Assembly: GCF_003260995.1 (NCBI RefSeq)
Contig: NZ_CP030040.1
Location: 2,272,501-2,336,500, forward strand
Source: Acetobacterium sp. KB-1
GTDB lineage: Bacteria > Bacillota > Clostridia > Eubacteriales > Eubacteriaceae
Direction of reading: 5' to 3'
Length of the DNA stretch: 64,000 nt
Numbering within the stretch: position 1 is the first letter of the stretch; each line of letters opens with the position of its first letter. This document shows positions 1,681 to 27,036 of the stretch, piece after piece. A program made the position numbers and the translations under genes. The notes under the pieces are model-generated. The model had not been told where the DNA came from. It did not search any database and saw only the letters and a list, made by a program, of their open reading frames with translations.

Positions 1681-1770
1681 TTAAGAGCAGCCCATGATCC
1701 CTAAGATATTCCGGGCGCTCAGTTTTTGGTCATTTTGTTCAATACGCTTCTCTCCAGGGTCTGCGTCCAT
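1681..1770 (-). CDS. 29-codon leader ORF between M-box and corA
   Basis: An ATG at 1770-1768, preceded by a clear AAGGAG on the minus strand, opens a 29-codon frame beginning MDADPGEKR and ending at TAA at 1683-1681. The corA start codon follows 15 bases later and its Shine-Dalgarno directly follows the leader stop, so the two may be translationally coupled. The ORF lies downstream of the M-box terminator and would be translated only on read-through transcripts. Its start, an acidic run with an Asp-Pro, recalls the Salmonella MgtL leader (MEPDP...), in which acidic and proline residues destabilise ribosomes at low Mg2+. That likeness is inference; the ORF and its ribosome binding site are seen directly. 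Confidence 0.6.
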   Translation of the reverse strand: MDADPGEKRIEQNDQKLSARNILGIMGCS

Positions 1771-1851
1771 CTTATCTCACTCCTTTTTTTTTAATTCACA
1801 CCAAAGAAAGACCATTTGCTACTTTGCTTCTGGCTCTTTGGCGTCTAAATA

Positions 1852-1890
1852 AATAAAAAAATCTCCACTTTAACAGAGGAGATTTTTGCA
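1852..1890 (-). terminator. Terminator of the M-box expression platform
   Basis: On the minus strand AATCTCC pairs with GGAGATT across a short loop and is followed by a run of seven T. A competing antiterminator is visible: AGAGGA at the 3' edge of the M-box can pair with TCCTCT of the terminator 5' arm, reinforced by TTTTTGC and GCAAAAA. This is the usual ON/OFF design of M-box leaders. Confidence 0.85.
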
Positions 1891-1904
1891 TAGCAAAAAT
1901 AATG

Positions 1905-2065
1905 ATTCCTCTATTCGTTGAGTTTTGGCACTATACAGCATAGGGCATCGCCCAACTGCATTAAGTAAAACCTTAAGTCGATAGTACCTGTTGACCCATT
2001 GGCATCTTTCGATGTTTCCGGGCAGCAGCCATATCTGTATAGGAGCCTCACCTAACAAAAGAAAC
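1905..2065 (-). promoter_or_regulatory. M-box (ykoK leader) magnesium riboswitch
   Basis: Read on the minus strand the segment holds the M-box core: GTTAGGTGAGGCTCCTATA, CTGCCCGGAAACATCGAAAG, then GCCAATGGGTCAACAGGTAC and the closing CAACGAAT. M-box RNAs fold on several Mg2+ ions and terminate transcription of Mg2+ transporter genes when the ion is plentiful. The terminator and corA downstream agree with this. Confidence 0.92.
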
Positions 2066-2278: not shown

Positions 2279-3823
2279 TTAAGAAGCATTATGTTTTTTT
2301 CGATAAATGACAACCCCAATAATGCCGAGTACAACAACAATGGCACCAATAATTCCAGCAACCATCCATGAATCAGCCGGATTTGATTCTACTATATTTA
2401 CCCGTACTGTTGCAACAGCACTTTTAAAATAATTGTTACCTTTATATTTGACAATAACTTCCTGTTCACCTACTTCGTTTTTATAACTTAACTCAATGTC
2501 ATCTCGGTTAAATTTAACTTCATTATTATTTTCATCCACAACTGCAATGGCAAGGTCTTGATACACTGCGTCGTTCATTTTTTTTGTATCACGATCATAT
2601 TCAACACTTGGTGGATTTGCCGCAATAACCAATGCGCTATCTTTTTTTTCTGCAATAATAACCGTTTCCGTTGCCTTGCTTGTGTTATATTTGTCGGTTC
2701 CTTTATATTTTACCGTCACCGGTTGATCGCCCGCAACGCGATTGTAACTCAGCTCAATATCCGTTGTTGTAAAATTAACGGCATTATTTTTGCTGTCAAC
2801 CACCTGAATTCCAAGCACTTGATAAACCGCAGCATCCAATTTGCCAGCGTCACTGGTATAGTCCACTGTAATCGGCGGTTTTGCCAGATTGATGGTTGTA
2901 TTTTCTTTAGCTGGTGCCGGAGGATCGACCTGGCCAGTGATTTCTATATCGACAGTCGCCATACTTGGCGAATACTGATCATTTCCTTTGTATTTTACGG
3001 TAACATCCTGTTTCCCGGGGGCTCGGTTATAACTCATCTCAATATCAGCTGCGGTAAAATTTATTTTGTTACTTCCCGCATCAACAACCACAATACTCAA
3101 TGCCTGATAAACAGCCAAATCAAGTTTTGCTGAATCACTGGTATAGGCTACTGCTGGCGGCTTCGCAGCAATGGATACTCTGGTATCCTGCTTTCCGATA
3201 ATCTGAACTGAAGCATTAACCTGACTCGGATTGTATTGGGAATTCCCCTTATAAGCGACAACAACATTTTGCGTTCCCACCGCATGATTAAAGGTCAGGG
3301 TAATATCACTCGGTGAAAATTCAATCTTGTTGGAATCACCATCGACCACTTGAATCACCAGATCGTCATATACCGCTTTATCTAATGTCGCAGCATCAGC
3401 GGAATAACCTACCGCTGGCGGATTGACTTTCAATACCAGTCGGGTATCTTTCTTAGGAACCTCATTGATAATAATGTTTCCAGTTGCCATACTGGTCTCA
3501 TATTTTTCGTCGCCGATATAGGTAACGTTTATCTTTTGCGTGCCAACCTGTCGATTGTAGTCGAGAACAATATCGTCCTTAGTGAAATCAATTTTATTAT
3601 CGTCGCTATCCACCACTACGATGTTCATGGCATTATAGACCGCCTTATCCAGTTCGTCTGCTGATGTGTTGAATGTCACCGAGGCTGGTGAACTGGCGAT
3701 CGATACCGTCGTTGCCAGTTGATTATCTGCTTCTGCCCAAATTCCCATCGGTAGCAGCATTAAAATCAATGCTGCAATCAATCCTGTTTGCCACATCCGT
3801 CCAGTTAATTTTTCATTATTCAT
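2279..3823 (-). CDS. Exported surface protein with five tandem Ig-like repeats
   Basis: This 514-residue protein starts with a signal peptide (about residues 10-31, ending near WAEA), continues with five tandem repeats of about 87 residues, and ends with one membrane helix (SWMVAGIIGAIVVVLGIIGVV) and a basic tail. Each repeat has the pattern P-P-x-V-x-Y, a D-x-A-V-Y motif, V-V-D, an [FN]-x-x-x-D-I turn, and V-x-Y-x-G-x-x-x-Y near its end. This resembles bacterial Ig-like or MBG-type beta-sandwich modules. No LPXTG sorting signal is present, so it is probably held in the membrane by its C-terminal helix. The next gene upstream encodes a second exported protein of similar style. The ligand is unknown. 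Confidence 0.75.
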   Translation of the reverse strand: MNNEKLTGRMWQTGLIAALILMLLPMGIWAEADNQLATTVSIASSPASVTFNTSADELDKAVYNAMNIVVVDSDDNKIDFTKDDIVLDYNRQVGTQKINVTYIGDEKYETSMATGNIIINEVPKKDTRLVLKVNPPAVGYSADAATLDKAVYDDLVIQVVDGDSNKIEFSPSDITLTFNHAVGTQNVVVAYKGNSQYNPSQVNASVQIIGKQDTRVSIAAKPPAVAYTSDSAKLDLAVYQALSIVVVDAGSNKINFTAADIEMSYNRAPGKQDVTVKYKGNDQYSPSMATVDIEITGQVDPPAPAKENTTINLAKPPITVDYTSDAGKLDAAVYQVLGIQVVDSKNNAVNFTTTDIELSYNRVAGDQPVTVKYKGTDKYNTSKATETVIIAEKKDSALVIAANPPSVEYDRDTKKMNDAVYQDLAIAVVDENNNEVKFNRDDIELSYKNEVGEQEVIVKYKGNNYFKSAVATVRVNIVESNPADSWMVAGIIGAIVVVLGIIGVVIYRKKHNAS

Positions 3824-3950
3824 TTTCTTTCCCTTTCCATCTGATCCATTTTTGCTATAACCACTAGCATCCTATGATCTATTAATCCAAACCGTTGTAA
3901 ACGTTTTTCTTAACTTGTCTCTACATCGTCTCCCTCCCCTTTATGATACT

Positions 3951-3982
3951 AAAAAAGATCTATCTTTATTGACAGATCTTTT
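3951..3982 (-). terminator. Intrinsic terminator of the YDG/MBG surface-protein gene
   Basis: AAAAGATCT and AGATCTTTT form a stem just past the stop codon at 3991, followed on the minus strand by a T-run. It separates the two surface-protein genes into different transcription units. Confidence 0.8.
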
Positions 3983-3990
3983 ATTTCAAA

Positions 3991-5427
3991 CTAGTCCATT
4001 TTGGTCAAACGATTTTTCCCAAAGAAGATGGCTCCCGCAATCAATAACAACAGCAACAAAGCAATGCCCATGTAAGGGATCGGCAACGCCTCTTCCTTCT
4101 CAGCGGCTCCGCTGCCGCCATCGCTGTACTCATTTCCGCCATACACAGCCACCTTATCTTCTTTTTTTATAATTTCAAATTTATTCGCTCCATCAGCTAA
4201 TTTAAGGTGATAATTCGGATTATCCAAACTCCCTAAAAAAACATCATAGGTCCCTACCGCTTCTCCTGCTTCACGTTCTAAAGATCCGAACATCACGTCA
4301 TCAGCATATAATCCTTTATTAAAACCATCTCCTGAATCCTCCTGCCAGACAGTGTAAGTTAATGCCGGGTCTGCTTCGCCCTGAATTTTCGAAACATAGC
4401 CAGGGATAACCGTTATTGCGGCCGGGGTAATGCTATATTTTTCCTTGGAAATGATGGTTTGGTTGTTGATTATATAATTTTCTGTCTTGGTCCCATCGAT
4501 GCCATACAAATAGAAGCCACCTGACGCCCATACATAATATTTTCCCACATCTTTTTGCCGAGTATTAATTTCTCCATAATAAGGATAAAAATCTGCCGCT
4601 CCAAAAACACCTAATTCTTCGCCCTTAATCAGATCTGTTTTATTGACAGATAGTTGATACTCATTGAGGTTTGGGGTTCCATCATAAACCTTATTCTGAC
4701 CGGCAAGGAGAACCTCTACCGGCTTGGGCAAAATACTGGCCACTAATGATACGTTGATGCTCACCAATGGTTTGGTCTCTGTTATTTCGTCGACAATGAG
4801 ATAGTTATTTCCCTTGTCGCCTGAAATCGTGACCTCTTTCAGAACGACTAAATTTGAATTTGTCGGTTTCACATCCTTAAATAAAAAACTGGCCGATGCA
4901 TAGTCAAATGCAACCTTATCGATATCCGCAGCGATAACACCCCGGTTTCCCAATCCCTTTAAGGCAATCTCAGGAACTATGATGTTACCATCATAAATTT
5001 TAGTAATTGGCTTTTCTGTAATGAATTCTGATGTTTTGAGTTCAATCGGCGTTATTTTAATTTCTTTTTTATCTTCAATCTTCGCATAGGCTTCGTCACC
5101 CCGATAGACTGCAAACACCTGATAGGTTCCCACCTCCGAAGGCGGATTGGTTGACAAGGGATAGATTTCTCCATTTGCCTGAATCCCTTTATAAGTGATC
5201 TCGATCAGTTCCGAATCAAGATCTGGTCCCTCGGCAACGGGATTTACTGTGGCCAAAACCTGCGGTCCTCCATTGTAGACGATATCAGATGAGAAGAGAA
5301 TAACCGGACGTAGCGATCCCTGTTCAGTTTGATTTTCTGCCAGGACGCTTATATAAAAGCAGGTCGCATTCAAAACGATCGTCAAGACTAAGCATAAAAA
5401 CAGCCTGATACTGTTGGTCTTTTTCAT
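3991..5427 (-). CDS. Exported surface protein with YDG and MBG-like domains
   Basis: This 478-residue protein has an N-terminal signal peptide (about residues 8-30, LFLCLVLTIVLNATCFYISVL), an extracellular body and a C-terminal membrane helix (MGIALLLLLLIAGAIFF) with a basic end. The body contains two KIYDG/KVYDG motifs (TKIYDGNIIVPE and NKVYDGTPNLNE) typical of YDG domains, and a region starting ITVIPGYVSKIQGEADPALT that matches the MBG pattern (K-x-Y/Q-G-x-x-D-P). Such modules are common in clostridial adhesins and surface-layer proteins. There is no LPXTG motif. The gene is monocistronic between terminators. Binding partner unknown. Confidence 0.75.
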   Translation of the reverse strand: MKKTNSIRLFLCLVLTIVLNATCFYISVLAENQTEQGSLRPVILFSSDIVYNGGPQVLATVNPVAEGPDLDSELIEITYKGIQANGEIYPLSTNPPSEVGTYQVFAVYRGDEAYAKIEDKKEIKITPIELKTSEFITEKPITKIYDGNIIVPEIALKGLGNRGVIAADIDKVAFDYASASFLFKDVKPTNSNLVVLKEVTISGDKGNNYLIVDEITETKPLVSINVSLVASILPKPVEVLLAGQNKVYDGTPNLNEYQLSVNKTDLIKGEELGVFGAADFYPYYGEINTRQKDVGKYYVWASGGFYLYGIDGTKTENYIINNQTIISKEKYSITPAAITVIPGYVSKIQGEADPALTYTVWQEDSGDGFNKGLYADDVMFGSLEREAGEAVGTYDVFLGSLDNPNYHLKLADGANKFEIIKKEDKVAVYGGNEYSDGGSGAAEKEEALPIPYMGIALLLLLLIAGAIFFGKNRLTKMD

Positions 5428-26418: not shown

Positions 26419-26494
26419 TGGTGACCCATGGGCGACTTGAACGCCCGACACCCTGATTAAAAGTCAGATGCTCTACCAACTGAGCTAATGGGTC
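26419..26494 (-). tRNA. tRNA-Lys (anticodon TTT)
   Basis: A full cloverleaf of 76 bases including an encoded CCA: acceptor GACCCAT pairs with ATGGGTC, D-arm AGCTCAGTTGGTAGAGC, anticodon loop CTTTTAA, T-arm GGGCGTTCAAGTCGCCC. It is the last gene of the five-gene operon. Confidence 0.97.
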
Positions 26495-26567
26495 ATGCTA
26501 TAATTTACTTTTTGTTTGTCTCCAAACGATAATGAATACTCAACTTTGCCTAACTAAGCGATTCACA

Positions 26568-26602
26568 CAAAAATGTTCACTTCCTTCGGTCGTGCATTTT
26601 TG
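26568..26602. other. Hairpin between tRNA genes
   Basis: CAAAAATG and CATTTTTG form an 8-bp stem around a loop with further CAC/GTG pairing. It lies in the 170-bp gap between tRNA-Gln and tRNA-Lys and joins the duplicated tRNA-Lys fragment. It may be a processing signal or scar of a rearrangement. Confidence 0.45.
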
Positions 26603-26615
26603 GTTCTCTGCTTTG

Positions 26616-26636
26616 CAACTGAGCTAATGGGTCATG
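26616..26636 (-). pseudogene. Partial copy of tRNA-Lys (first 20 bases)
   Basis: Twenty-one bases are identical to 26477-26497, the acceptor 5' strand and D-arm start of tRNA-Lys. The rest of the tRNA is missing. It lies 139 bp upstream of the real gene in the same operon. Confidence 0.8.
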
Positions 26637-26667
26637 TCTTTTTTCTGTCTTCTCTGCCGAGCAAAAG

Positions 26668-26743
26668 TGGCAGGGGTAGCAGGACTCGAACCTACGGATG
26701 CAAGAATCAAAATCTTGTGCCTTACCAACTTGGCTATACCCCT
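26668..26743 (-). tRNA. tRNA-Gln (anticodon TTG)
   Basis: A 76-base cloverleaf with encoded CCA: acceptor AGGGGTA pairs with TACCCCT, anticodon loop within GATTTTGATTC, T-arm with GGTTCGAGTCC. The first pair is A-U rather than the common U-A of tRNA-Gln. Confidence 0.95.
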
Positions 26744-26764
26744 ATTAATATAATGCTATTGAAA

Positions 26765-26842
26765 TGGGGTGGATAATGGGACTCGAACCCACAACTTCCG
26801 GAATCACAATCCGACGCTCTAACCGATTGAACTATACCCACC
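26765..26842 (-). tRNA. tRNA-His (anticodon GTG)
   Basis: The cloverleaf has acceptor GTGGGTA with TATCCAC, an extra 5' G opposite C73 as required for tRNA-His, anticodon loop TTGTGAT, T-arm GTGGGTTCGAGTCCCAT and encoded CCA. Confidence 0.96.
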
Positions 26843-26866
26843 ACGAGATAAATACGATAAAATAAA

Positions 26867-26943
26867 TGGTGCGCCTGAGAGGATTCGAACCTCTGGCACA
26901 CGGCTTAGAAGGCCGTTGCTCTATCCTACTGAGCTACAGGCGC
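26867..26943 (-). tRNA. tRNA-Arg (anticodon TCT)
   Basis: A 77-base cloverleaf: acceptor GCGCCTG with CAGGCGC, D-arm AGCTCAGTAGGATAGAGC, anticodon loop CTTCTAA, T-arm AGAGGTTCGAATCCTCT, A73 and encoded CCA. Confidence 0.97.
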
Positions 26944-26962
26944 TCAATTCTTTTCGCAAAAA

Positions 26963-27036
26963 TGGAGCGGGTGAAGGGAATCGGACCCTCGCGACTGGCT
27001 TGGAAGGCCAGGGCTCTACCACTGAGCTACACCCGC
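26963..27036 (-). tRNA. tRNA-Gly (anticodon TCC)
   Basis: A 74-base cloverleaf: acceptor GCGGGTG with CACCCGC, anticodon loop CTTCCAA, T-arm GAGGGTCCGATTCCCTT and encoded CCA. It is the first gene of the operon. Confidence 0.97.

Follow-up and report, generated by a model that had tools for sequence, protein, structure and literature searches.

Short leader ORFs of Mg2+ transporter genes are already known from enterobacteria (mgtL, corL and mgtQ), as is an M-box followed by an upstream ORF from Mycobacterium tuberculosis. MgtL, encoded upstream of enterobacterial mgtA, carries the motif EPDP, in which altering Glu2 and Asp4 abolished the effect, and it acts on transcription termination (PMC11282234). 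The corA leader of Acetobacterium described below resembles mgtL in being a short ORF 5′ of a Mg2+ transporter gene with two alternative predicted RNA folds, in carrying acidic residues and proline within codons 2-5, Asp4-Pro5 being in register with EPDP, and in the expectation that poor leader translation would give more transporter. It differs from mgtL in that the genes concerned are corA and mgtE, that Acetobacterium has Ala3 where MgtL has Pro3, that the output is apparently translational masking of the Shine-Dalgarno sequence (SD) rather than transcription termination, and that the leader is stacked behind an M-box. The sequence comparison with MgtL covered this short motif.

In Salmonella and E. 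coli, corA likewise has a short leader ORF, corL, whose translation is inverse to corA expression, but which is reported to have fewer proline and acidic residues and to act with Rho (PMC11552253), whereas here a clear acidic-Asp-Pro motif is combined with a putative SD switch in Gram-positive bacteria. The mechanistically nearest published case that we found is mgtQ of Salmonella mgtCBRU, in which acidic codons control whether a switch exposes or hides the transporter SD; unlike the present leader it is intergenic and has 8 codons, its proline codon acts by base pairing and not as an amino acid, and its arms pair 1:2 and 3:4 against 2:3, a geometry other than the one proposed here (PMC8092293). 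In M. tuberculosis pe20, an M-box is followed on one mRNA by the conserved short ORF rv1805A, but there the M-box governs translation of the uORF itself, and the available part of the report proposes no ribosome-destabilizing role for rv1805A and does not mention mgtL (PMC12810186). Within the open-licence literature, with preprints excluded and terms matched literally, no report was found of an acidic-proline leader preceding corA or mgtE in Firmicutes.

The locus occupies positions 736-2124 on the minus strand of the window, the whole 64,000-nucleotide stretch of Acetobacterium sp. KB-1 DNA that was analysed. A promoter-like site (TTGACA-17-TATAGT, 2096-2124) matching 11 of 12 consensus positions lies 5′ of the M-box; it is weak on its own, because nine such sites were observed in the scanned region against 7.8 expected. 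The M-box Mg2+ riboswitch aptamer (RF00380, 1903-2066) is full length, scores 148.4 bits with the covariance model against a gathering score of 44, and is the only M-box match in the genome. It is followed by an intrinsic terminator hairpin and U-run (1854-1890, -13 kcal/mol, z -4.96), which was found by hairpin energy computation and is absent from the output of a simple terminator scan. An inverted repeat (ACGCCAAAGA...TCTTTGGTGT, 1795-1843, minus strand) between this terminator and the leader is poorly conserved in the genus alignment. The M-box itself is ordinary as a member of the ykoK family; the addition is the leader ORF behind it.

This ORF (MDADPGEKRIEQNDQKLSARNILGIMGCS, 1681-1770) has 29 codons and its own SD, AGGAG within AAGGAG (1780-1784), of which GGAG or a shifted GGAG is kept in the genus alignment. 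Codons 2-5, Asp-Ala-Asp-Pro (1756-1767), form the proposed ribosome-destabilizing motif. The end of the leader stop lies 15 nt from the corA ATG at 1665, with the corA SD AGGAGG (1672-1677) in between. As in MgtL-type systems, the short ORF with an SD stands 5′ of a Mg2+ transporter gene: corA (736-1665) encodes 309 aa matching PF01544 (E 9.2e-53), and its product contains YGMNVEG, which we take to be the GMN motif of the Mg2+ transporter. The preliminary description had reported a 29-codon ORF with a ribosome binding site between the M-box terminator and corA, its stop abutting the corA SD, and both observations are borne out. When the 4.0 Mb genome was searched with AGGAG-N3..12-ATG-NNN-NCN-GAN-CC, the corA leader was the single match.

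Other features of the window include an FMN riboswitch just 3′ of corA (RF00050, 542-670, minus strand, 105.4 bits), a T-box leader (RF00230, 14980-15249, minus strand, 122.7 bits) and a cluster of five tRNA genes (26422-27036, minus strand). Two long ORFs of 514 and 478 aa 5′ of the M-box (2279-5427, minus strand) have hydrophobic stretches near the N terminus, repeats in the interior and a hydrophobic C-terminal end, and from these sequences they look like surface proteins.

Conservation of the leader was assessed in 19 Acetobacterium genomes, of which 17 had corA and the same 17 had an M-box; the two genomes with neither match are 83 and 86% complete. The leader ORF was in frame in all 17 corA loci, that of KB-1 included. 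Loss of its start, stop or frame in close relatives had been named as what would speak against a leader peptide, and all three are kept (17/17), the stop codon being TAA in 16 loci and TGA in one. The first six residues, MDADPG, and the last three, GCS, are invariant, while the middle varies and the length is 28 or 29 residues, changing in frame. The acidic and proline residues within the first five codons that characterize MgtL are therefore represented by D2-A3-D4-P5 in 17/17 loci, with Ala replacing Pro3, and a rule of an acidic codon 4, Pro codon 5 and SD was positive in 17/17 against a shuffle mean of 0.05. The preliminary description had proposed looking for a conserved acidic/proline start with synonymous changes elsewhere. 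This start is indeed the conserved part, and synonymous changes occur at Asp4 (GAC 13, GAT 4), Pro5 (CCT 16, CCC 1) and Gly6 (GGA 13, GGT 4), although the codons of Asp2 and Ala3 never vary in the genus.

Short ORFs 5′ of corA were also found at loci of CorA relatives, some from public genomes and some from the same order, with starts such as MNPDP, VSPDP, MKADP, MSPEP and MDADP, and most of these loci are without M-box motifs. A motif rule was framed after reading these loci and those of the genus: an ATG, GTG or TTG start with an SD, an acidic codon 4, a Pro codon 5, a length of 8-70 codons and a start no more than 260 nt from corA. On the loci already read (L056-L121) it was positive in 29 of 58. 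A CorA search of 393 class genomes at E<=1e-80 was positive in 157, 13 of them in the same order as KB-1. The rule was then applied to 123 further loci, drawn from 122 of the 144 class genomes outside that order plus one locus of the own-order search, and including two near-copies of loci read before. It was positive in 31 of 123, and these divided into 29 among the 47 fetched loci with the best CorA scores versus 2 among the 76 with lower scores. Dinucleotide shuffles gave a mean of 0.35 (maximum 2) for the 47 loci and of 0.475 for the 123, and reverse complements gave 0/47 and 1/123. Widening the window of the rule to 450 nt raised the count to 35/123, with one of the four extras (L218) probably due to chance. 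Among the 47 best-scoring loci the motif was absent from 18 within 260 nt and from 15 within 450 nt. Each species is represented by a single genome in the class samples, and several of the positive loci come from a shared genus.

The leader type is widespread, often without an M-box, and its shared motif is Asp4-Pro5, which the preliminary description had missed. A variant, V-K-P-D-P-L-C (L122, L124, L126, L058), starts 58-70 nt 5′ of corA, runs across the corA start in another frame and stops 26 or 56 nt into the gene. Three loci of family f23 (L132, L136, L137) have the leader about 250-290 nt 5′ of corA, with a recurrent hairpin-like pair, GAGTATCTTTTG...CAAAAGCTACTC, between the two.

The 79 leader-positive loci, redundant and genus copies included, bear on what has been conserved. 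It is very unlikely that selection acted on an RNA element, such as a protein or ligand binding site, in which the open frame is incidental. Such an element would be consistent with base conservation in the genus that extends beyond the codons, both at the 3′ end and around the start codon, and with the invariant Asp2 and Ala3 codons. However, over the 79 loci codon 4 (GAC 63, GAT 12, GAG 3, GAA 1) and Pro5 (CCT 61, CCG 10, CCC 5, CCA 3) vary synonymously, the search rule having fixed the residues but left their codons free, and in the genus the length changes in frame. Rfam scans also argue against it: at gathering score no family was found on the KB-1 leader or on the leaders of 20 other leader/corA loci, where the hits (T-boxes, tRNAs and L10 leaders) all fell outside the corA leader regions, and a permissive scan gave sub-threshold matches only. 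The Rfam 15 scan, in which no family matched the KB-1 corA leader at gathering score, may not have covered the structured corA leader RNA of gammaproteobacteria (PMC6429828).

That the ORF encodes a functional microprotein, acting for example on CorA, is more improbable still, even though the peptide has invariant N- and C-terminal ends throughout the genus. Outside the genus the leaders share little beyond codons 4-5 and range from 12 to 53 residues across the 79 loci, the conserved 3′ end overlaps a paired RNA arm, and the peptide had no match in Pfam or NCBIfam.

To approach the class without reference to corA, the pattern GGAGGTG-N2..8-RTG-NNN-NCN-GAY-CC, a strong SD followed by RTG-x-NCN-Asp-Pro, was searched in the 393 class genomes. 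It gave 18 matches versus 3 for the reversed pattern. By coordinate comparison with the CorA search, 16 lie directly 5′ of corA; the other two (L246 and L249) lie 5′ of mgtE genes with MgtE_N and CBS domains, so that every one of the 18 stands before a gene for a Mg2+ transporter, and the two transporter families are unrelated. The KB-1 leader is outside the 18 because its SD differs, and the pattern thus catches only part of the leader set. In a phylum sample of 249 genomes, nearly all of other classes, there were 33 matches against 13 for the reversed pattern, so chance plays a larger part there; most were long genes starting x-x-D-P, or antisense frames. Among the 30 of these 33 loci that were supplied, nine were ORFs of 8-60 codons, four of which precede mgtE (L299, L305, L319) or corA (L300), while for the other five no CorA or MgtE match was found. 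When MgtE genes were surveyed regardless of leader, in 30 loci supplied from 81 positive of 118 genomes, one (L267) had the motif within 320 nt, so that the use of the motif on mgtE is patchy.

This distribution bears on whether the ribosome is lost at the motif or merely held there. A ribosome paused at Asp4-Pro5, for example through a lack of EF-P or of charged Pro or Asp tRNA, would likewise leave the 5′ arm of the RNA switch described below free, giving the same RNA output to a signal that need not be Mg2+. Consistent with such a pause, E. coli MgtL gives a toeprint at Pro3 when EttA is present (PMC11282234). The motif, however, contains a single Pro codon and one or two acidic ones, which makes tRNA supply a poor signal, and the 18 class matches all precede Mg2+ transporter genes and not amino-acid genes. 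We regard stalling as decidedly unlikely and drop-off at the motif as the preferred reading.

M-box and leader also occur together elsewhere. Of 20 class loci given to cmscan, 10 had an M-box, and in 8 of these a leader was placed between the M-box and corA (L133, L136 and L137 of f23; L150, L151, L153 and L164 of f27; L154 of f69). One locus (L155) combines an M-box with a near-miss leader, MECDTG, and in another (L162) an M-box was present and no leader was found within 450 nt. Together with the family of KB-1, these three bring the number of families with the tandem arrangement to at least four, and its recurrence in the three other families was a further point that the preliminary description had missed. 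M-box and leader each occur alone too, M-box motifs without a leader being present, for example, at L190, L193 and L214-L217. Further M-boxes lie 5′ of P-type cation ATPase genes in the genus (L041, L042) and in the same family (L035-L038), a call made from the N-terminal domain PF00690, which was tested in one genus example and one family example.

An RNA switch downstream of the motif is predicted. In KB-1 a 5′ arm within the leader (GAGCGCCC, 1713-1720) would pair with a 3′ arm (GGGCTGCTC, 1685-1693), one bulged C being needed, and this 3′ arm is common to the anti-sequestor so formed and to an SD-sequestor, in which CTCTT (1683-1687) would pair with the corA SD (1673-1677). The arms were identified from the genus alignment and pair counts. 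The genus anti-sequestor at the leader end (GAGCGGCC...GGCUGCUC) is paired in 95.3% of cells, with a two-sided change at one pair only, G-C to A-U, among four distinct sequences. Four loci, KB-1 (L002), L003, L007 and L008, have the 5′ arm GCGCCC and the 3′ arm GGGC, which could pair in a shifted register with a bulge, while L006 has the GGGC 3′ arm with an unchanged 5′ arm. The SD-sequestor, formed by the 3′ arm and the corA SD, is paired in 97.5% of cells over only five pairs, one of them G-U, and has no covariation support because it is nearly invariant in the genus. Within the genus, covariation for the switch is thin.

Mean SD-unpaired probability was tried as a measure of switching and set aside, since many full regions are mixtures and the two states were not cleanly separated. 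An opening-cost test, chosen after that result had been seen, compared the cost of opening the SD in the whole post-motif region with the maximum cost when upstream parts were hidden, against 30 dinucleotide shuffles per locus over up to 110 nt. Of the 80 leader-positive loci, 23 that were redundant or doubtful were removed by hand, and the test was applied to the remaining 57. In these 57 loci, which are phylogenetically non-independent, the full-region cost had a mean z of 0.03 and the hidden-arm cost a z of +2.6, and the cost difference had a mean z of +3.0 (t 9.5). The control, 45 leader-negative corA loci with more distant CorA genes and no motif within 450 nt (0/45), gave a mean z of -0.28 with 20 shuffles over the last 90 nt. 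At the KB-1 locus, opening the SD costs 1.3 kcal/mol in the full region versus 4.7 in the suffix, a modest effect (z 2.0). As computed, both the 57-locus mean and the KB-1 value point to alternative folds tied to leader translation, the arrangement known from MgtL. For 43 of 55 loci, 50% or more of the bases that pair with the SD also find an upstream partner in the alternative fold, so that by computation one segment can pair with either an upstream arm or the SD, as in a translational attenuator.

Exceptions were found. In the genus, L005 has no switch by the test (z 0.1); among the other leader-positive loci, the switch is absent or reversed in L058, L059, L069, L126, L132, L136, L137 and L138. 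Among mgtE loci, L246 and L249 do not pass this test, and L299 and L319 have the same arm arrangement by eye.

Taken at face value, the genus layout would also suit translational coupling, in which ribosomes that complete the leader either start again at corA or open the SD hairpin; leader translation would then turn corA on, and a shortage of Mg2+ would lower corA expression. The leader stop sits 13-16 nt 5′ of the corA start across the genus with the SD in between, and the 3′ arm lies just 5′ of that stop. Over the 79 loci, however, the end of the stop codon falls anywhere between -140 and +56 with respect to corA, so that short-range re-initiation is no shared feature, whereas 50 of 51 loci have a 5′ arm that starts at most 12 nt beyond the stop, within reach of a finishing ribosome. 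In addition, a Mg2+ importer repressed at low Mg2+ makes little sense if Asp-Pro acts as in MgtL. We therefore hold coupling to be unlikely and prefer a switch that masks the SD when the leader is translated. The folding model suggests that the output of the leader is translational rather than Rho-dependent termination; this apparent output was also missing from the preliminary description. Because the Acetobacterium leader ends within the loop of the sequestor, a ribosome at its stop codon would itself cover the SD, and the sign of the switch in this genus is the least certain step of the model.

The arrangement that we consider probable, from comparative sequence evidence, folding computations and analogy, places two Mg2+ checkpoints on the corA mRNA, a transcriptional M-box gate followed by an Asp-Pro leader with an SD switch. 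Comparison and computation provide the conserved ORF, Asp4-Pro5 in many families, two transporter families and two mutually exclusive predicted structures. At ample Mg2+ the M-box and its terminator would halt transcription, by the mechanism known for the family to which the aptamer belongs. On transcripts that extend into the leader, the acidic/proline motif Asp2-Ala3-Asp4-Pro5 in the young nascent chain is proposed to destabilize the ribosome at low Mg2+. With ample Mg2+ the ribosome would pass the motif and cover the 5′ arm, in the second half of the leader; the 3′ arm would then pair with the corA SD and corA translation would be low. When Mg2+ is scarce the ribosome would be lost at Asp4-Pro5, the 5′ arm would pair with the 3′ arm, the SD would be open and CorA would be made. 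Leader translation, the Mg2+ response with its drop-off, and the direction of control are what we infer; ribosome loss at low Mg2+ in particular is carried over from MgtL, where Glu2 and Asp4 of EPDP matter (PMC11282234). The idea that a riboswitch and then an MgtL-like leader act on one RNA, put forward in the preliminary description, is supported by the comparative sequence evidence.

In the literature found, the ribosome-destabilizing leaders described for Mg2+ transporter genes all come from enterobacteria. We lean towards a broader reading, held with somewhat less confidence than that of the corA mRNA, in which nascent-chain ribosome destabilization is a general Gram-positive Mg2+ sensor on CorA and MgtE, read by an SD switch and, in a number of lineages, placed 3′ of an M-box. 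The 79 leader loci, redundant and genus copies among them, form a natural set for learning the minimal motif, and the corA transcript offers a testable case of one mRNA that would read Mg2+ twice, in transcription through an aptamer and in translation through ribosome stability. If the reading is true, leaders of this kind would be widespread in clostridia, on both CorA and MgtE, and could be found by a sequence rule short enough for genome scanning.
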